In this document: piece by piece, positions 2,724-42,627 of the stretch | How the letters are laid out: each line of letters opens with the position of its first letter | How positions within the stretch are numbered: the stretch's first letter is position 1 | From: Alphaproteobacteria bacterium | Lineage (GTDB): Bacteria; Pseudomonadota; Alphaproteobacteria; UBA9219 | Length of the DNA stretch: 52,092 nt | NCBI GenBank assembly: GCA_028866275.1 | Contig: JAGWIK010000015.1 | Location: 1 to 52,092, forward strand | Direction: 5' to 3' | Translations under genes and position numbers: made by a program | The notes under the pieces: model-generated | Database searches by the model: none | The model's input: only the letters and a program-made list of their open reading frames with translations | What the model was told of the DNA's origin: nothing

Positions 2724-5399
2724 ATGCCTGTCGTTCAAGCCTCTTTCCTGCCGCCGGAACCTGCTGCCGAACCCGCCGCCGTTACCCCGTTGATGGCGCA
2801 ATATCTGTCGGTCAAGGAACGGCATAAAGAATGCCTGCTGTTTTTCCGTCTGGGCGATTTTTACGAATTGTTTTTCGACGATGCGGTGACGGCGGCGAAA
2901 TGCCTCGACATCGCGCTGACCCGCCGTGGCCAGCACCAAGGCAATGACGTGCCGATGTGCGGCGTGCCCGCCCATTCCTATGAAGGCTATCTGGCCAAGC
3001 TGATCCGCGCGGGGCATCGCGTCGCCATTTGCGAACAACAGGAATCGCCCGAAGACGCGAAAAAGCGGGCCAAAGGCGGCAACGGCAAATCCATCGTCAC
3101 GCGCGACGTCGTCCGCATCATCACGCCCGGCACGTTGACCGAAGACAATTTGCTGGATGCGCGCGCGGCCAATTATCTGGCGTGTCTGACATCCGTGGGC
3201 GACGACATTGCCGTGGCGTGGTGCGACATCGTGTCGGGCCATATCTATGCGCAACAGGTGCTTGCCGCCGACATGGCGGGCGTTCTGGCGCGGCTCGACG
3301 CCAGCGAAATTCTGGCGGCGCAACGCGTGGTCGAAAATCCCGATTTATACGAAACGCTTGCGCCGTGGCGCGCCAAATTGTCGGCGCAGCCCAATGGCCG
3401 TTTCGACAGCGACAATGCCCGCCGCCGCATGATGGATATTTACGGCGTCGGCGATATCGCGGCGTTCGGCGATTTTTCGCGCGCCGAAATCGCCGCGCTG
3501 GGTGCGTTGCTGGATTATGTCGAGCTGACCCAGAAAAGCGACCTGTCCCATTTCGCGCGGCCGCAACGCATGGGCGCGGAAACCGTGGCGATCGACGCCG
3601 CGACGCGGCGCAATCTGGAACTGACCCGCACATTGTCCGGCGACCGGCGCGGCAGTTTGCTCGACAGCATCGACCGCACGGAAACCGGCGCGGGGGCGCG
3701 GTTGCTGGCGTCGCGGCTGGTCGCGCCCTTGACGGATATTGGGGCCATCAACGAACGGCTCGACGGCGTGGCGTTTTTCACGGCGGCATCGCCGTTGCGC
3801 GGCGATATCCGCGCCGCGTTGCGCCGCGCGCCCGATCTTGAACGCGCGCTGGCGCGGCTGGTTCTGGGGCGCGGCGGCCCGCGCGATCTGGCGGCGGTGC
3901 GCGATGCGCTGGCGCAGGCCGAGACGATACGCAGCGCGTTGCTGGCCGTCCCGGCGGTGCCCGCGGGGCTGCGCGGCGAGGTCAAAAATCTGGGCGAACA
4001 TAATGGGCTGATCGACAAACTGGGCCGCGCGCTGGCGGCCGATCTGCCGATGTTGGCGCGGGACGGCAATTTTATCGCGCGCGGCTATGCGGCGCAACTC
4101 GACGAACTGGTGACGTTGCGCGACGACGGCAAACGCGTTATCGCCGGGTTGCAGCAAAAATATGCGATGCAGTCGGGCGTGCCGACGTTGAAAATCAAAC
4201 ATAATCAGGTTATCGGCTATCATATCGACGTCACGCCCGCGCAGGCCGACAAACTGCTGGCGGACAAAGACACGTTCATTCATCGCCAGACGCTGGCCAC
4301 GGCGGCGCGGTTCACCACGGTGGAACTGTCCGAACTGGAACGCAAAATCACTGAGGCCGGCGACAAGGCTCTGGCCGTCGAATTACAGCTGTTCGGCGAT
4401 CTGGTCGGCGACGTTACGCAACGCGTCGATGATTTGCGCGCGGCGGCGCAGGCTTTGGCCGCGCTCGATGTCGCGGCGGCGCTGGCCGAACTGGCGGTCG
4501 AACAAAATTATGCGCGGCCCGCGGTCGACGCTTCGCTGGCGTTTGACATTGCGGGCGGGCGGCATCCTGTCGTCGAACAGGCCTTGCGCGCGCAGGGTGG
4601 CGCGGCATTTATCGCCAACGCGTGCGACCTTGGCCCCGATCAGCGGCTGTGGCTGCTGACCGGGCCGAATATGGCGGGCAAATCGACTTTCCTGCGGCAA
4701 AATGCGCTGATCGCCCTTCTGGCGCAAACGGGGTCGTTCGTGCCCGCGGCGGCGGCCCATATCGGTGTCATCGACCGGTTGTTCAGCCGCGTCGGCGCGG
4801 CCGACGATCTGGCCGCGGGACGGTCGACCTTTATGGTCGAAATGGTGGAAACGGCGGCGATTTTGACTCAGGCTTCCGACCGCGCGCTGGTTATCCTCGA
4901 TGAAATTGGACGCGGCACGGCGACCTATGACGGGCTTTCCATCGCCTGGGCGGTTCTGGAATATCTGCACGGCGTCAATAAATGCCGCGGGTTGTTCGCC
5001 ACGCATTATCACGAACTCACGGCGCTGGCGCGCGATTTGCCCGCGCTGCGCTGCGCCACGATGCGCATCCGCGAATGGGGCGGCAAGATCGTCTTCATGC
5101 ACGAAGTCGTCGACGGCGTCGCCGACCGTTCATACGGCATTCATGTCGCGCAAATGGCCGGATTGCCGGCGCCGGTGATCGCGCGCGCGGAGCAGGTTTT
5201 GTCGGGACTGGAAGAAGCCAAAGCGGGGCGGGGAAGTGGAGCGACTGCCTTGCCCGCCTTCGACCCCGCTGTCGCGCCCGCGCCCAAAGCCAAGCCCATG
5301 ACGGCGGAACTGGAATCGATTCTGTCCACTCTCGACCCCGACGGGATGAGCCCCAAACAGGCTTTGGAAGCGTTATACCGCATTAAATCGGCGGTATAG
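2724..5399 (+). CDS. mutS: DNA mismatch repair ATPase MutS
   Basis: Recognises mispaired bases and small loops and recruits MutL. 891 residues from the chosen ATG. The mismatch-reading Phe-X-Glu is at GDFYELF (Phe46, Glu48); the connector, lever and clamp domains follow; the ABC-type ATPase has Walker A GPNMAGKST at 647-655, the Walker B stretch RALVILDEIGRGT, and the conserved LFATHYHELT. The C-terminal tail is short, as in other MutS1 proteins. An in-frame ATG at 2673 would overlap the pdxJ start on the other strand, so 2724 is preferred; a third ATG at 2793 begins MAQYLSVKE, where the conserved region starts. No strong ribosome binding site decides between them. Confidence 0.95.
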   Translation: MPVVQASFLPPEPAAEPAAVTPLMAQYLSVKERHKECLLFFRLGDFYELFFDDAVTAAKCLDIALTRRGQHQGNDVPMCGVPAHSYEGYLAKLIRAGHRVAICEQQESPEDAKKRAKGGNGKSIVTRDVVRIITPGTLTEDNLLDARAANYLACLTSVGDDIAVAWCDIVSGHIYAQQVLAADMAGVLARLDASEILAAQRVVENPDLYETLAPWRAKLSAQPNGRFDSDNARRRMMDIYGVGDIAAFGDFSRAEIAALGALLDYVELTQKSDLSHFARPQRMGAETVAIDAATRRNLELTRTLSGDRRGSLLDSIDRTETGAGARLLASRLVAPLTDIGAINERLDGVAFFTAASPLRGDIRAALRRAPDLERALARLVLGRGGPRDLAAVRDALAQAETIRSALLAVPAVPAGLRGEVKNLGEHNGLIDKLGRALAADLPMLARDGNFIARGYAAQLDELVTLRDDGKRVIAGLQQKYAMQSGVPTLKIKHNQVIGYHIDVTPAQADKLLADKDTFIHRQTLATAARFTTVELSELERKITEAGDKALAVELQLFGDLVGDVTQRVDDLRAAAQALAALDVAAALAELAVEQNYARPAVDASLAFDIAGGRHPVVEQALRAQGGAAFIANACDLGPDQRLWLLTGPNMAGKSTFLRQNALIALLAQTGSFVPAAAAHIGVIDRLFSRVGAADDLAAGRSTFMVEMVETAAILTQASDRALVILDEIGRGTATYDGLSIAWAVLEYLHGVNKCRGLFATHYHELTALARDLPALRCATMRIREWGGKIVFMHEVVDGVADRSYGIHVAQMAGLPAPVIARAEQVLSGLEEAKAGRGSGATALPAFDPAVAPAPKAKPMTAELESILSTLDPDGMSPKQALEALYRIKSAV

Positions 5400-38744: not shown

Positions 38745-39689
38745 ATGACAAAGTCCGCCGACACGCTTCCCCTCGCCGATGATTTAATGGACGCCGTCGC
38801 GCGTTGGCGCGGCTGGATGTCGCTTGAAAAACGCATGGCGGCCAAGACGGTTGAATCTTACGGCTTCGATATACAAAATCTGTTTCGTTTTCTTGTCACG
38901 CATCGCGGGCGGCAATTGACGCTGTCGATGCTGGCCGATGTTACGCTCGGCGATTTGCGCGCGTGGCTGGCGCATAACGCGGGCGAGGCTATCGGCGCGG
39001 CTTCGCGCGCGCGGGCGGTGGCGGGGGTGCGCAGTTTCTTTCATTGGCTCGACCGCACCGGGCAGATGCACAACGCGGCCGTCGACGCGTTGAAAATGCC
39101 GAAGGTCGCGCGCCGCCTGCCGCGGCCGGTCACGGAAATTCAGGCGCAGGAAATCGTCATACAGGCAGAGCAGGGGCAAGACGCGTGGGTCGGCCTGCGC
39201 GACCGCGCGTTGTTCACGTTGTTGTATGGCGCGGGGTTGCGTCTGGGCGAAGCGCTGGGCCTGACGCGCGGCGGCATCAAACGCGACGGCCATATCACGG
39301 TGACGGGCAAAGGCGGCAAGCAACGCCGCGTGCCGCTCTTGCCGGTGGTGGCCGACGCCGTCGCCCGCTATCTCGCCGCCTGTCCTTACGCGTTGAAAGA
39401 CGATGATGCGGTTTTTGTCGGCGCGCGCGGCGACGCGTTGAATCCGGCGGTGGCGCAACGGCATTTACGCGCGTTGCGGCGGCAATTGGGTTTGCCCGAC
39501 AGCGTGACACCGCACGCGCTGCGCCACAGCTTTGCCACGCATATGCTGGCATCCGGCGCCGATTTGCGCAGCCTGCAGGAATTATTAGGTCACAGTTCCC
39601 TGTCGACGACGCAGCTTTATACGCAGGTGGATGCGCAACATCTGTCGTCGGTCTATCGCGCCGCGCATCCGCGCGCCAAGCAGGGGTGA
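38745..39689 (+). CDS. xerC: Site-specific tyrosine recombinase XerC
   Basis: Resolves chromosome dimers at dif together with XerD. 314 residues from the ATG at 38745; an upstream extension of the frame passes through the REP palindrome and is not coding. The N-terminal core-binding domain (residues 10-110) leads to the catalytic domain with the R-K-H-R-H/W-Y set: first Arg in GAGLRLGEALGL, Lys in VTGKGGKQRRVPL, HALRHSFATHML (His and Arg), LGHSSLSTTQLYTQV (His and nucleophilic Tyr). The end fits the XerC rather than phage integrase pattern. Confidence 0.9.
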   Translation: MTKSADTLPLADDLMDAVARWRGWMSLEKRMAAKTVESYGFDIQNLFRFLVTHRGRQLTLSMLADVTLGDLRAWLAHNAGEAIGAASRARAVAGVRSFFHWLDRTGQMHNAAVDALKMPKVARRLPRPVTEIQAQEIVIQAEQGQDAWVGLRDRALFTLLYGAGLRLGEALGLTRGGIKRDGHITVTGKGGKQRRVPLLPVVADAVARYLAACPYALKDDDAVFVGARGDALNPAVAQRHLRALRRQLGLPDSVTPHALRHSFATHMLASGADLRSLQELLGHSSLSTTQLYTQVDAQHLSSVYRAAHPRAKQG

Positions 39690-39701
39690 TTCATTTTATC
39701 C

Positions 39702-39730
39702 TTGTGCCGCAGGCGTTTCTGAGTCATAAT
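39702..39730 (+). promoter_or_regulatory. Promoter, first leader unit
   Basis: TTGTGC (39702-39707), 17-nt spacer, CATAAT (39725-39730). The ATG of the small peptide begins 7 nt after the -10, so the transcript would start at or next to the start codon. Confidence 0.5.
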
Positions 39731-39737
39731 CCCAAAC

Positions 39738-39800
39738 ATGACCAAGATGGTTGCCCATAACGCGCTTATGCGTTCCATTAAAAAGGCGATGAAGGCCTAG
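39738..39800 (+). CDS. 20-residue cationic peptide, first copy
   Basis: MTKMVAHNALMRSIKKAMKA. No ribosome binding site can precede it because the promoter leaves almost no untranslated leader, so if it is translated the message would be leaderless. Its stop TAG lies in the centre of an 18-nt palindrome. A second copy at 40248-40310 encodes MTMMFAPAALKRIIKKAIKA: same length, same stop, same Ile/Met-Lys-Lys-Ala ending, 9 of 20 residues identical, changes mostly conservative. Amphipathic and basic. It may be a leader peptide that couples ribosome position to the RNA fold downstream, or the apparent reading frame may be the 5' end of a structured RNA. Confidence 0.5.
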   Translation: MTKMVAHNALMRSIKKAMKA

Positions 39801-39852
39801 GCCTTCACACATCTCGCGTCCGGTTCCCGACGATCACGTTCCGCCCCGGGCC
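39790..39852 (+). ncRNA. Structured leader RNA, first copy
   Basis: Hairpin I is the perfect palindrome at 39790-39807 (7-bp stem, CTAG loop containing the peptide stop). Hairpin II pairs GTCCGG (39818-39823) with CCGGGC (39846-39851) and encloses 22 nt that differ from the second copy at a single base (CCCGACGATCACGTTCCG here). There is no T-run, so it is not a terminator. Further on, CCTTC (39881-39885) pairs with GAAGG (39890-39894) over the ribosome binding site of the next gene. That same CCTTCA could instead pair with TGAAGG of hairpin I, a possible switch. Confidence 0.55.
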
Positions 39853-39902
39853 TAATCCTCAAAAAACAATCCGATAAACACCTTCAACCGAAGGAGAATG
39901 CT

Positions 39903-40193
39903 ATGGGTGCGCATGCGCAAAGACATGCCGGGCAAGAGGATCTGCTTACGCCGGGAACAAAACTGGTTCTGGTCGAATTTGACGATAATCCGTTGGTGCT
40001 GGTGGGATTGCCTAGAAGGGTCACCGTCGGGGAAGCGTGGGACGCGGAACAGGAAGGCGATATCCCGCTGGTCAGCCTGTTGATCACCGTCGGCAGTTTA
40101 AGTTTTCGCCGCGACACATATTTGTTGATGACGCCGCGGCAGGTGCGCGCCCATTACCGGCGCGAAGATGCGGCCATCGTCGCCATATGTTGA
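39903..40193 (+). CDS. Small unknown protein A following the first leader unit
   Basis: 96 residues; AAGGAG 6 nt before the ATG fixes the start. The core LLTPGTKLVLVEFDDNPLVL, LPRRVTVGEAWDAEQEGDIP and YLLMTPRQVRAHYR aligns with the protein encoded at 40416-40781: both have LL-x-PG-x-x-L-x-x-VEF, LP-x-x-x-TV-x-E, D-x-E-x-(D/E)G-x-x-P, and (L/M)-TP-x-QV-x-x-(H/Y)Y. Mixed alpha/beta composition, no signal peptide or membrane segment. Family unknown; the two are diverged paralogues, each behind the same RNA leader. Confidence 0.65.
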   Translation: MGAHAQRHAGQEDLLTPGTKLVLVEFDDNPLVLVGLPRRVTVGEAWDAEQEGDIPLVSLLITVGSLSFRRDTYLLMTPRQVRAHYRREDAAIVAIC

Positions 40194-40211
40194 ATGAAAT
40201 CATTATGGGGC

Positions 40212-40241
40212 TTGCGGGCATTCGGAATATTTGCTTATAAT
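40212..40241 (+). promoter_or_regulatory. Promoter, second leader unit
   Basis: TTGCGG (40212-40217), 18-nt spacer, perfect TATAAT (40236-40241), 6 nt before the second peptide's ATG. It starts 18 bp after the stop of protein A. Confidence 0.6.
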
Positions 40242-40247
40242 GACGGC

Positions 40248-40310
40248 ATGACGATGATGTTTGCCCCCGCCGCGCTCAAGCGCATTATTAAAAAGGCTAT
40301 TAAGGCCTAG
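40248..40310 (+). CDS. 20-residue cationic peptide, second copy
   Basis: MTMMFAPAALKRIIKKAIKA, ending in TAG at 40308-40310 inside the palindrome. The first base is 7 nt from the perfect TATAAT, again predicting a leaderless message. Between the copies, third-codon-position and conservative changes are frequent while the length and the KKA-(I/M)-KA-stop end are kept, which favours translation over chance. It resembles small amphipathic helices; toxicity or membrane action is possible but unsupported. Confidence 0.55.
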   Translation: MTMMFAPAALKRIIKKAIKA

Positions 40311-40363
40311 GCCTTAACACATCTTCGTGTCTGGTTCCCGACGATAACGTTCCGCCCCAGACC
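40300..40363 (+). ncRNA. Structured leader RNA, second copy
   Basis: Hairpin I is the palindrome TTAAGGCCTAGGCCTTAA (40300-40317); relative to copy one the second base pair has changed from G:C to T:A on both arms. Hairpin II pairs GTCTGG (40329-40334) with CCAGAC (40357-40362), where copy one has GTCCGG with CCGGGC, so a C:G pair has become T:A and a T:G wobble has become T:A. Pairing kept through two-sided changes is direct evidence for an RNA fold. The 22-nt loop (CCCGACGATAACGTTCCG in its centre) is almost unchanged. Confidence 0.6.
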
Positions 40364-40415
40364 TCAAAATCCCCAAAGACAAAATAGTAAAAAATCTTCC
40401 CAGATGGAGTGAGTA

Positions 40416-40781
40416 ATGGATATGCATGTCGCCGCGGAACCCGGTCTTGGGCTTTTGCGTCCCGGTTTGTTGTTGCAGCGTGTCGAATTTAACGAGGTTG
40501 CTGCCGAATATTGCGGCCAATTGCGCACATTGCCTAAATCGTTGACGGTGGAGGAAGTCAAATTTTTTGATCCCGAAAAAGACGGCCCCGGCCCCGCGGT
40601 TATGGTGGCTTTGCGGGTCAATGCGCGGTCGGCCTTTTATAATGAAGGCACATCGATGATGTTGACGCCCATGCAGGTGCAACGTTACTACAAGCTGGCG
40701 TCGTCCCTTAAACTGCATAGATCCGGACGGCTTATGGCTGCGAAACTATTTCCCAGCTTGCATTGCGAAGCTGGAAAATAG
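40416..40781 (+). CDS. Small unknown protein B following the second leader unit
   Basis: 121 residues; GGAG 9 nt before the ATG. Paralogue of protein A: LLRPGLLLQRVEFNEVA, LPKSLTVEEVKFFDPEKDGP and SMMLTPMQVQRYYKLAS occupy the same order. It has about 25 more residues at the C-terminus (LKLHRSGRLMAAKLFPSLH), whose last codons form a long inverted repeat at 40746-40781. No known domain recognised and no membrane segment. Confidence 0.62.
   Translation: MDMHVAAEPGLGLLRPGLLLQRVEFNEVAAEYCGQLRTLPKSLTVEEVKFFDPEKDGPGPAVMVALRVNARSAFYNEGTSMMLTPMQVQRYYKLASSLKLHRSGRLMAAKLFPSLHCEAGK
40746..40781 (+). terminator. Long hairpin overlapping the stop of protein B
   Basis: CTATTT (40746-40751) and CCAGCTT (40753-40759) pair with AAGCTGG (40768-40774) and AAATAG (40776-40781), a 13-bp stem with one mismatch. 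A loose T-rich patch follows at 40795-40798. Could be a terminator or attenuator between protein B and the next gene. Confidence 0.45.
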
Positions 40782-40815
40782 ACAATCATTGCGGTTTTAA
40801 AATAAGGAAAATCAT

Positions 40816-41121
40816 ATGGCTAATTCGTCACCCAGAGACCATATTTTGCCGGTCGTTTATCGCCCGGATGCCGGAGATAGTTTTGCGGATATCCTGACCC
40901 GTCGGGTACAGGGCGAGGCCGCGGGCAAAGGCTGGACTCACCAATCGGTTGCGGTGCTTATATCCGACATTGTGTCTGCGTTCAGGCGCGCCGGCCCCGT
41001 TGTCGCGGGCGAGACTGTGGAAATTTCCGGAACCAAGACTGGGGACGAGAATAGAAGGGGACTGTGCGTCCGCGTCATAAATGGCGGCGGCCAAGTCCGG
41101 CACACGGTTTTTGTCCCTTAA
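40816..41121 (+). CDS. Small unknown protein, 101 residues
   Basis: AAGGA 10 nt upstream supports the ATG. Sequence has a helical middle (SVAVLISDIVSAFRRAG) and a beta-rich end (RGLCVRVINGGGQVRHTVFVP). It does not align with proteins A and B, but it continues the same gene row, 34 bp after protein B, and ends 6 bp from the convergent trpE stop. Not recognised. Confidence 0.55.
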   Translation: MANSSPRDHILPVVYRPDAGDSFADILTRRVQGEAAGKGWTHQSVAVLISDIVSAFRRAGPVVAGETVEISGTKTGDENRRGLCVRVINGGGQVRHTVFVP

Positions 41122-41127
41122 ACGGGT

Positions 41128-42627
41128 TTATTTCTCTTTCGCATAAGCCACGGCAATTTCCGCGGCGCGCAGCATGCTGCGCGCCTTGGCCGCGCATTCG
41201 CGATATTCGGCCTGCGGGTCGCTGTCGTACACTACGCCGCCGCCCGCCTGCACATACAGCGTGCCATCCTTGACGACGCCGGTGCGGATGGCGATGGCGG
41301 TATCCATTGACCCGTTGGCGCCGAAATAACCGATGCAACCGCCGTAAACGCCGCGCCGGTCGGGTTCCAGTTCGGCGATGATTTCCATCGCGCGGATTTT
41401 CGGCGCGCCGGACAGGGTGCCCGCCGGAAACCCGCCGATCAACGCGTCGATGGCGTCATATTTCGGGTCGAGTTCGCCTTCGACATTCGACACGATATGC
41501 ATGACATGTTTGTAATATTCGATGAAGTTGCGCGCGGTGACGTTAACCGTGCCCATTTTGGCGACGCGGCCGACATCGTTGCGGCCCAGGTCCAGCAGCA
41601 TCAAATGTTCGGCCAGTTCCTTGGGGTCGGCCAGCAATTCGGCTTCCAATTCTTGGTCGGTTTGATTGCCCGCGCCGCGCGGCCGTGTGCCGGCGATGGG
41701 GCGTATCGTCACTTTGCCGTCGCGCACGCGCACCAGAATTTCCGGGCTCGACCCGACGACGGAAAATGCGCCGAAATTGAAGAAAAACAAAAACGGCGAG
41801 GGGTCGAGGCGGCGGAGGACGCGATACAGCGAAAAAGGCGGCAAGGCGAAGGGGCGCGAAAAGCGCCGCGCCAGCACGACCTGAAAAATATCGCCCGCGC
41901 GGATATATTCCTTGGCGCGTTCGACCATGTCGATATAGGCGGATTCGGTCAGGTTGCAGGCGACGGCATCGTCGGCCTGCGGCAATGCCGGCGCGGCGGG
42001 TTCCAGCGGCAAGGGTTTCCGCAAATCCGCCAGCGCGGCGTCGAGCCGCGTCATCGCCGCGTCATAGGCCGCTTGCGGCGACGCGTTTTTGTCGAACCAT
42101 ACGGGGGTGGACAGGGTGAATTTGTTTTCGATCTGGTCGAAAATCGCCAGCAAGGTCGGGCGCACCATAATCGATTCCGGCACATCGACGCCCGCGGGTT
42201 GCGCGTCGGGCAGGGTTTCCATATAGCGCACCATATCGTAACCCAGATAGCCGAACAGGCCCGCGGCCATCGGTTGCGGTTGATCGGGATCGTCGATGCG
42301 GCTTTCGGCCAGAAGGGTTTTCAGATCGTCGAGCGGCGCGCGCGCCACGGGCACAAAGGCGTCGGGGTTCGTCAGGGCATTGCGGTTAATGACGACCGCG
42401 CCGCCGGATGTGCATCGCCACACGATGTCGGGGTCGCGTCCGATGATGGAATAACGTCCGCGGATGGCGCCGCCTTCGATGGATTCCAGCAAAAAGGCAT
42501 AAGGCCGCCCGTCGCCCAGTTTCAGCATGGCCGACACCGGCGTGTCGAGATCGCTGACTAGGCTCGCGGTCAGAACCTGATTCTGGCCTGCGTTCCAGCG
42601 ACGCAGAAAGACGGCATAATCGGTCAT
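41128..42627 (-). CDS. trpE: Anthranilate synthase component I
   Basis: Converts chorismate to anthranilate, first step of tryptophan synthesis, using ammonia from a TrpG subunit. 499 residues. N-terminal feedback-binding region includes LLESIEGGAIRGRYSIIG; the chorismate-binding catalytic domain has IAGTRPRGAGNQTDQELE, LGRNDVGRVAKMGTVNV, GGFPAGTLSGAPKIRAMEII and GGCIGYFGANGSMDTAIAIRT. Its start lies 8 bp after the ppiD stop, a coupling common in alphaproteobacteria. The usual trpG-trpD-trpC continuation is missing; downstream are convergent accessory genes. Confidence 0.95.
   Translation of the reverse strand: MTDYAVFLRRWNAGQNQVLTASLVSDLDTPVSAMLKLGDGRPYAFLLESIEGGAIRGRYSIIGRDPDIVWRCTSGGAVVINRNALTNPDAFVPVARAPLDDLKTLLAESRIDDPDQPQPMAAGLFGYLGYDMVRYMETLPDAQPAGVDVPESIMVRPTLLAIFDQIENKFTLSTPVWFDKNASPQAAYDAAMTRLDAALADLRKPLPLEPAAPALPQADDAVACNLTESAYIDMVERAKEYIRAGDIFQVVLARRFSRPFALPPFSLYRVLRRLDPSPFLFFFNFGAFSVVGSSPEILVRVRDGKVTIRPIAGTRPRGAGNQTDQELEAELLADPKELAEHLMLLDLGRNDVGRVAKMGTVNVTARNFIEYYKHVMHIVSNVEGELDPKYDAIDALIGGFPAGTLSGAPKIRAMEIIAELEPDRRGVYGGCIGYFGANGSMDTAIAIRTGVVKDGTLYVQAGGGVVYDSDPQAEYRECAAKARSMLRAAEIAVAYAKEK

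Follow-up and report, generated by a model that had tools for sequence, protein, structure and literature searches.

A duplicated leader element was identified at positions 39702-40781 of a 52,092-nucleotide (nt) stretch of DNA from an alphaproteobacterium of the UBA9219 lineage (assembly GCA_028866275.1, contig JAGWIK010000015.1), the whole of which is called the window here. Its two tandem units (unit 1 and unit 2) lie on the forward strand and show the same order of parts over 39702-40416: a promoter-like site, a 20-codon open reading frame (ORF), a hairpin that holds the stop codon of this ORF (hairpin I), a second hairpin (hairpin II), a G-poor stretch and a small protein gene. From the sequence comparisons described below, the element is read as a ribosome-sensed amino-acid attenuator whose codons can be exchanged while the output hairpin is kept, and a probability of about 0.72 is given to this reading. 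Each unit would be a 5' leader in which the translating ribosome reports whether the tRNA of one amino acid is charged. The codon-sensing step is considered very probable. Premature transcription termination is slightly favored as the output, and translation control or action in trans is rated below it.

Copies of the element and their distribution

Twelve copies of the element were found with covariance models in 8 of the 24 genomes of the family. A model designated R1, built from four copies (the two of the window, one in G002 and one in G007), was run on these 24 genomes and recovered the remaining eight copies at 39-63 bits, with the next match at 19.6 bits. The copies added by R1 are located in G039 (two), G022 (two, in tandem), G006, G018, G010 and contig 5 of the window genome (G000). 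A model built from all 12 copies (R2) was run on 33 genomes of the order and returned the same 12 at 63-83 bits; the best matches that are not copies scored 26.2 bits (overlap with a true copy, on its opposite strand) and 24.5 bits. Among the weak matches from the family and the order, nine R2 matches at 17.8-24.5 bits were aligned and left uncounted. No copy was detected by R2 in the nine other genomes of the order outside the family. A class-wide R2 search of 385 genomes gave convincing copies only in the window genome (its three), at a lower sensitivity at which weak or distant copies could escape, as 13 candidates were scored per genome and three genomes of the family were drawn. Three matches of this search in other families (26-29 bits) were judged by eye to be due to chance. 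Copies within one genus are not independent, and most of the genomes are draft assemblies. Two tandem copies precede one gene in G022 (locus L113, G022:C8, 4434-4671), and the ORF of the second would run into hairpin II.

The conserved 22-nt stretch of hairpin II was also used as a search pattern. With up to three mismatches, it occurs at two places in the host genome, both of them the window units. It matches 10 of 39 genomes (the window's included), with true copies in G002 and G007; the other matches have no hairpin I by eye and were rejected. The exact pattern was found at three loci in genome contigs, namely one true copy in a metagenome-assembled genome that appears to be G002, and two loci in Actinobacteria that by eye resemble coding DNA and lack hairpin I, and were set aside. 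The 19-nt core with no mismatch has at least 11 occurrences among the matches listed for the 33 order genomes, all within copies of the element, and the twelfth copy carries a variant core. Rescoring by R2 of three core-pattern matches outside the window genome (from the 385 class genomes) and of 22 viral contigs yielded two partial matches at 19-22 bits, which were not retained.

A search of Rfam 15 with the window at the gathering threshold returned one tRNA and no leader or riboswitch family. Positions 39700-40420 gave one match at E values up to 5 (16.5 bits, opposite strand), and nine loci searched at E up to 2 gave a tRNA and five matches under their gathering scores. A preliminary description of the two units, made from the sequence of the window, had recognized no known riboswitch or leader family in them, in agreement with these results. 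It had proposed a covariance-model search built from both copies as a check, and had named a lack of homologues, or stems without covariation, as the outcome that would speak against it. The searches with R1 and R2 gave the 12 copies, with no convincing copy outside the family, and both hairpins covary, so that neither of these outcomes was observed.

Leader peptide codons and downstream pathways

The leader ORFs comprise 19-22 codons and end with regulatory codons, an Ala codon and the stop codon, which is lost in one tandem copy. Ten copies are rich in Lys at the end (KKAMKA, KRKKA, KHKKA, KSKKA and others), and two are rich in Thr (TTTRTLQTTA and KTTRTLQTTA). At position -2 before the stop codon, or before the lost stop of the second G022 copy (G022b), all 10 copies of the Lys type have Lys and both copies of the Thr type have Thr. 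The last regulatory codon sits in the 5' arm of hairpin I, and the pairing partner therefore changes with the codon: Lys AAG pairs with CUU, and Thr ACG pairs with CGU. Accordingly, all 10 Lys copies have A-U at pair 9-21 of the plain alignment described in the next section, and both Thr copies have C-G there.

The enrichment in regulatory codons that characterizes the leader ORF of a ribosome-mediated attenuator was found in the Lys leaders and in the Thr leaders. Outside the hairpin arm (without the initial methionine and the last three codons), Lys accounts for 25 of 167 residues in the ten Lys leaders, against a background of 4.1% (P 3e-8); this background is based on 82 long open frames in the window and the retrieved regions, and the leaders are not all independent. 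In either Thr leader, 4 of 15 residues are Thr (P 0.005 for each of them); the two leaders are homologous and therefore one case.

The codon type matches the downstream pathway in all four copies with an identified pathway, that is, in 4 of the 12. Two Lys copies (G039a and G006) are followed by dapA, both over the NCBIfam cut-off, and in G006 lysA lies next to dapA and is also over its cut-off. The two Thr copies (G039b and G010) are followed by a gene whose best family is homoserine kinase (217.8 and 213.6 bits, short of its curated cut-off of 271) and then by a threonine synthase gene (238.7 and 246 bits, over the cut-off of 167.1). Genome G039 contains the Lys copy at dapA and the Thr copy at thrB, together with a second dapA and a second thrB that have no element. 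The family has 31 dapA/thrB-type matches; inspection by eye of the 260 nt upstream of 26 of them showed the element only at the four known copies. The element therefore seems to have been added to the dapA/thrB operons rather than to belong to their ancestral make-up. In the window genome, no dapA match was found at E 1e-20, compared with 18 of the 24 family genomes that have one, although a gap is possible in this assembly of 78 contigs. The same genome has two lysA genes over the cut-off, and its Lys-coded leaders precede other genes.

Other genes are located behind the remaining copies. The downstream protein in G022 is a partial match to glutamate-cysteine ligase family 2 (GCS2-type), whereas the copies in G018 and on contig 5 of G000 are followed by a GNAT-domain protein and then a histone-deacetylase-family protein. 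The preliminary description had tied the unit to the paralogous small protein, a link that does not hold because copies precede dapA(-lysA), homoserine kinase-threonine synthase, GCS2-type, and GNAT and deacetylase genes. It had also noted that conservation is highest in the RNA loop and not in the proteins, and had taken this to point to a function at the RNA level. The RNA-level function is supported, but the secondary place that it gave to the peptide does not, because the codons match the pathway in four copies and the last of them is within a hairpin.

A product acting in trans is very unlikely as the purpose of the leader. Such a product could be the basic peptide or a short attenuated RNA serving as effector, like peTrpL/rnTrpL of Sinorhizobium meliloti, which provides a precedent (excerpts of PMC7298713), or a small toxin. 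A short leaderless-looking ORF with hairpins behind it and a basic, partly hydrophobic peptide (e.g., LLLKRKKA at the end) would fit this explanation; however, the peptide N-termini differ among most copies, the Thr peptides are not Lys-rich, and four copies lie in cis before cognate operons.

Structure and covariation of the hairpins

In the window, the palindrome that contains the stop codon is TGAAGGC-CTAG-GCCTTCA in unit 1 and TTAAGGC-CTAG-GCCTTAA in unit 2, with a change of G:C to T:A. The second stem is GTCCGG..CCGGGC in unit 1 and GTCTGG..CCAGAC in unit 2, with a change of C:G to T:A, and encloses 22 nt with one difference. The pair of leaders with a 20-residue peptide, a stop-holding palindrome and a second stem had been reported in the preliminary description with these changes on both sides of the base pairs. 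Coordinates and base changes were confirmed from the sequence, and the covariation extends across the 12 copies. The 22-nt stretch had been taken for an open loop; the single difference was found as reported, but the stretch is itself folded: GACG pairs with CGUU in an inner helix around a loop of 4 nt, and an internal loop rich in C includes one C-G pair.

The 12 copies were aligned with plain MAFFT, without fitting to the structure (alignment A4). Standard pairs fill 96.3% of the cells of A4, and 7 of the 18 pairs are changed on both sides. None of 500 shuffles matched A4 in pairing percentage, doubly changed pairs, doubly changed cells or covariation score, whereas the number of pair types is not unusual (equalled in 249 of 500 shuffles). 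Slid partners in A4 pair at 26-50%. An alignment fitted to the model, which leans to the structure by construction, gave 98.6% pairing and likewise 7 of 18 doubly changed pairs. Both hairpins covary over the 12 copies, which agrees with the RNA-level function proposed earlier. The core of hairpin II is the most conserved part of the element, and its inner helix, invariant over the 12 copies, is supported by conservation and not by covariation.

The loop of hairpin I, read by eye, is exactly the stop codon in eight copies (two of them closed by a U-G pair) and consists of 4 nt holding the stop codon in three copies (unit 1, unit 2 and G002); it is GAG in G022b. The stop codon is separated from hairpin II by 15-18 nt, with 16 nt in 8 of 11 copies. 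Folding of the whole leader places hairpin I in the minimum free energy (MFE) structure of 9 of the 12 copies and leaves hairpin II intact in 11 of 12, with mean pair probabilities of 0.99 for unit 1 and 1.00 for unit 2.

The strong conservation of the hairpin II core would also be expected of a small riboswitch or protein-binding element; hairpin II would then be the binding site of a regulatory protein or of a metabolite of the aspartate family, and the codons would be incidental. Lys and Thr are both derived from aspartate, as is generally known. However, one core serves Lys and Thr copies, the codons and the hairpin I arm change with the pathway, Lys is enriched outside the arm, and a hairpin of 34 nt is small for a metabolite pocket. 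This explanation is regarded as improbable. Hairpin I could alternatively be a DNA operator for a transcription factor, as the palindrome AAGGCCTAGGCCTT is present in both window copies and is perfect in each. Other copies have 3-nt loops, the Thr copies alter both arms along with the codon, and hairpin II is an interrupted stem with covariation, so an operator is hardly credible.

Promoter-like sites and predicted start of the RNA

A promoter-like site was found in 11 of 11 copies that have an upstream region of their own. It consists of TTGnnn, a spacer of 16-18 nt and a -10-like hexamer that ends 6-9 nt before the ATG. The twelfth copy, G022b, is the second of a tandem pair without its own promoter region and was left out of this count. 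The mean score of this layout is 10.8 and falls to at most 8.4 when the ATG is shifted 3-24 nt upstream, with a score that favors TTG by design. The promoter would start the RNA at or beside the AUG, giving a leaderless-looking ORF. The preliminary description had likewise called the peptide ORF leaderless, and promoter-like hexamers would put the start near the ATG in both units.

Proposed mechanism and output

In the proposed mechanism, a ribosome that waits for Lys-tRNA or Thr-tRNA at the last regulatory codon would cover the 5' arm and the loop of hairpin I and hold the hairpin open, because this codon and the Ala codon form the 5' arm and the stop codon is in the loop. A ribosome at the stop codon would also cover the 3' arm and end about 6 nt before hairpin II, judging from the generally known ribosome footprint and the 15-18 nt spacing. 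Fast translation and release would allow hairpin I to close. The closed hairpin would be the OFF state for the downstream gene, probably through a stop of transcription within the leader. Where a U-run is present, hairpin I may itself be an intrinsic terminator, and elsewhere hairpin II and the G-poor, C/A-rich tract may help. Hairpin II would be the output module common to Lys and Thr copies and would most likely contact a protein, the polymerase or Rho, which is the weakest step of the scheme. In the window, the lysine version would control the two paralogous small proteins.

The intrinsic-terminator score of hairpin I with its U-rich linker is above zero in 5 of the 12 copies, according to a standard formula and with the best trimming allowed. 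Hairpin II fails this score in all 12, and no U-run follows it. The 40 nt after hairpin II contain on average 29% C, 10% G and 42% A, with C exceeding G in 12 of 12 copies, whereas control regions upstream of 135 ORF starts contain 27% C and 24.5% G, and 6% of them are as C-over-G rich as the median copy. Two other outputs were considered and rejected. Pairing of the hairpin I 3' arm with the Shine-Dalgarno region is possible by eye only in unit 1, G010 and the contig 5 copy of G000. Readthrough of the stop codon into the downstream gene has an open frame in unit 1, and the frame shifts among copies (by eye).

The composition of this tract, and the missing U-run after hairpin II, would suit a Rho-dependent leader of the tnaC kind, in which bare C-rich, G-poor RNA past the stop codon loads Rho and the position of the ribosome or hairpin II decides the outcome. 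Simple Rho logic nevertheless gives the wrong sign: a stalled ribosome would leave the stretch open and lower expression under starvation, opposite to what dapA-lysA and thrB-thrC would need. In addition, the share of equally C-over-G rich controls weighs against it, and the strict sequence of hairpin II is not known to be a requirement of Rho. A leader of this type is rated as unlikely.

A classical attenuator may be suspected in the copies with a KAxKA-type end, with hairpin I as the terminator and a pairing between Lys-Ala codons and the hairpin I 5' arm as the alternative. A local competing hairpin of this kind, formed by an upstream AGGC (Lys-Ala codons) and the 5' arm, is present in unit 1, unit 2 and G007 (-5.7, -6.2 and -8.4 kcal/mol, respectively). 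It is the favored structure in the whole-leader folds of unit 2 and G007 and a weaker possibility in unit 1. Such an attenuator would also be in line with the terminator-like hairpin I of five copies. However, the competing hairpin was not found in the other nine copies (G022b was tested, the rest were read by eye), and the AGGC repeat is absent by eye from the KxKKA and Thr copies. Of the three copies that have this hairpin, G007 alone reaches a passing terminator score, whereas units 1 and 2 clearly fail. A classical attenuator is accordingly rated as rather improbable. Antiterminator and terminator structures that exclude each other were not found as a property of the whole family, the competing hairpin being local to 3 of the 12 copies. 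Because there is no common antiterminator partner and hairpin I is terminator-like in only 5 of 12 copies, the element is not a textbook attenuator.

Several results weigh against the ribosome-sensed attenuator, and the competing hairpin of the three copies is among them. Hairpin I lies outside the whole-leader MFE structure in three copies, with a mean pair probability of 0.21 in unit 2, 0.22 in G007 and 0.04 in G022b. Its terminator score is -1.5 to -2.8 in 3 of the 12 copies and -20 to -45 in 4 of the 12, including both window units. In 60 duplex tests, no alternative partner of the hairpin I arms common to the 12 copies was detected, and the single test that reached p 0.05 reflects an effect of the tandem copies. 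Genes that match the pathway are behind only 4 of the 12 copies; the other eight are without a proven Lys link and could respond to Lys for other reasons. The two homologous Thr copies are one evolutionary case, the Lys copies are not mutually independent, and the genome that bears both a Lys and a Thr copy (G039) is a draft with about 6% estimated contamination. The G007 leader contains four Thr and four Lys, and the Ala codon and the last Lys are in part imposed by base pairing. The second G022 copy has neither promoter nor stop codon (GAG), although both hairpin sequences are kept. As to the promoters, between 0.7 and 22% of the shuffles of a single copy score as high as the copy itself. 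No promoter was listed for 39600-40900 by a stricter consensus scan (1.4 expected), which does not reach the promoter-like sites of the window because their -35 hexamers resemble the consensus little beyond TTG.

A more specific form of the ribosome-sensed attenuator is held tentatively. It would be a modular class without a classical antiterminator, in which a ribosome on exchangeable codons opens hairpin I, and hairpin II, a separate and sequence-specific part read by a factor or by RNA polymerase, turns the state of hairpin I into output. In this class, the element would be re-targeted between Lys and Thr through its codons and their pairing partner and placed before unrelated genes. The competing hairpin in three copies led to a lower rating of this form.

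The two units in the window and their surroundings

The coordinates of the features of both units are listed in Table 1.

Table 1. Features of the two tandem leader units in the window
Feature	Position	Strand	Remarks
Unit 1 promoter-like site TTGTGC-17-CATAAT	39702..39730	+	Ends 7 nt before the ATG
Unit 1 leader ORF MTKMVAHNALMRSIKKAMKA	39738..39800	+	ATG at 39738, stop TAG at 39798-39800; Lys at -2, -5 and -6 from the stop
Unit 1 hairpin I	39790..39807	+	5' arm includes the last Lys codon, loop includes the stop codon; mean pair probability 1.00
Unit 1 hairpin II, conserved core CCCGACG-AUCA-CGUUCCGCC	39818..39851	+	R2 score 62.6 bits
Unit 1 G-poor, C- and A-rich stretch 3' of hairpin II	39852..39891	+	A 18, C 13, G 2, T 7
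Unit 1 downstream small protein 1, 96 amino acids	39903..40193	+	No Pfam match at E up to 1
Unit 2 promoter-like site TTGCGG-18-TATAAT	40212..40241	+	Ends 6 nt before the ATG
Unit 2 leader ORF MTMMFAPAALKRIIKKAIKA	40248..40310	+	ATG at 40248, stop TAG at 40308-40310
Unit 2 hairpin I, stop codon within the loop	40300..40317	+	Present in the short fold; whole-leader fold prefers the competing hairpin (mean pair probability 0.21)
Unit 2 hairpin II, conserved core CCCGACG-AUAA-CGUUCCGCC	40329..40362	+	R2 score 65.7 bits
Unit 2 G-poor, C- and A-rich stretch 3' of hairpin II	40363..40402	+	A 20, C 11, G 2, T 7
Unit 2 downstream small protein 2, 121 amino acids, paralogue of protein 1	40416..40781	+	Best Pfam match E 0.11, below the cut-off

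Small proteins 1 and 2 are paralogous (27 of 81 positions identical, E 3e-10 in one single comparison), as had been noted before. The small proteins downstream of the window units, the G002 copy and the G007 copy have no Pfam match above the cut-off, and none was obtained at the cut-off for a set of seven proteins (the two of the window, the product of the third small ORF, three small proteins of relatives and another ORF of the G002 locus). The small protein of G007 has a C-terminal motif in common with window protein 2. An AlphaFold2 model of the unit 2 protein, made from a 4-sequence alignment, has a mean predicted local distance difference test (pLDDT) value of 42.

A third small ORF (40816-41121) is located after the unit 2 protein gene. 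The small ORF in second place at the G002 locus (L003, minus strand, about 4067-4351) has a weak N-terminal motif in common with this third ORF (E 0.009, single comparison). A long interrupted palindrome, CTATTTCCCAGCTT..AAGCTGGAAAATAG, at 40747-40781 forms the end of the unit 2 protein gene and looks like a two-way terminator. The convergent gene that faces it (41128-42627, minus strand) is trpE-like, judging from its sequence. Read on the minus strand, 39789-39808 and 40298-40319 present hairpin I followed by a U-run made by the Lys codons, which could terminate opposite transcription. A tRNA-Thr(CGT) gene is located directly upstream of the G007 copy (L013, G007:C81, 182-256).

Relation to known leader systems

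Classical ribosome-mediated amino-acid attenuators are represented by leaders of the trpL, thrL and hisL type. The present element resembles them in a leader ORF rich in codons of the pathway, a position in cis before the operon (in the four copies with an identified pathway) and a hairpin beside the codons. Unlike in the classical leaders, no antiterminator partner is common to all copies, the U-run is weak or absent in 7 of 12, a single hairpin takes in both the regulatory codon (in its arm) and the stop codon (in its loop), and a conserved second hairpin is common to two amino acids. In tnaC of Escherichia coli, a ribosome near the stop codon controls read-through, and free tryptophan is sensed via the nascent peptide. 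The present element would be similar in that the position of a ribosome beside the stop codon controls read-through, and it differs from tnaC in that codon identity appears to matter. A link of tnaC to Rho is mentioned in excerpts of PMC1262725.

The following comparisons refer to excerpts of the cited sources. The RNA of trpL in S. meliloti begins at the ATG, and its leader ORF is leaderless (PMC7298713; PMC10117765). The present element resembles trpL/rnTrpL in having a leaderless-looking leader ORF in an alphaproteobacterium. It is unlike trpL in that the latter has Trp codons and a described pair of terminator and antiterminator (PMC7298713), with no hairpin II mentioned in those excerpts. 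Six Thr and three Lys codons occur in a small ORF that precedes an aspartate dehydrogenase gene and has been noted as a possible leader peptide (PMC10117765), and five other motifs were reported in an earlier survey of alphaproteobacterial intergenic regions (PMC1273637). The LEU element of Actinobacteria is also a conserved RNA structure over a leader peptide, with codons that pair inside it and a mechanism that its authors left unresolved (PMC1262725). It differs in being a pseudoknot whose base stem pairs leucine codons with a Shine-Dalgarno box, and it concerns one amino acid (PMC1262725). The ilvB-II, ilvB-OMG and ilvB motifs were, like the present element, found by conservation and contain upstream ORFs (uORFs) rich in pathway amino acids (PMC10272879). 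They differ in being associated with one operon type (ilvB) and with branched-chain amino acids and threonine, and no output hairpin that works across pathways is described for them in the excerpts of that source (PMC10272879).

Ribosome-sensed leaders and RNA motifs of the uORF-attenuator type are already known, and the new part would be the conserved hairpin module with exchangeable Lys and Thr codons. No description of such a module, with the regulatory codon and the stop codon in one hairpin, was found among the papers listed in searches of the open-licence literature. A lysine-reading ribosome-sensed leader is not known to be established, riboswitches being the known form of lysine control, in a literature not exhaustively searched. 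If the ribosome-sensed attenuator is correct, the element would be a small sensor of amino acids in which a few codons and one pairing partner determine the specificity and the output hairpin is common. It would provide a direct natural case of a swap of attenuator specificity between Lys and Thr, and a lysine-reading member would join the ribosome-sensed leaders. It would also point to a partner of hairpin II and suggest a signal for the small proteins of the window.

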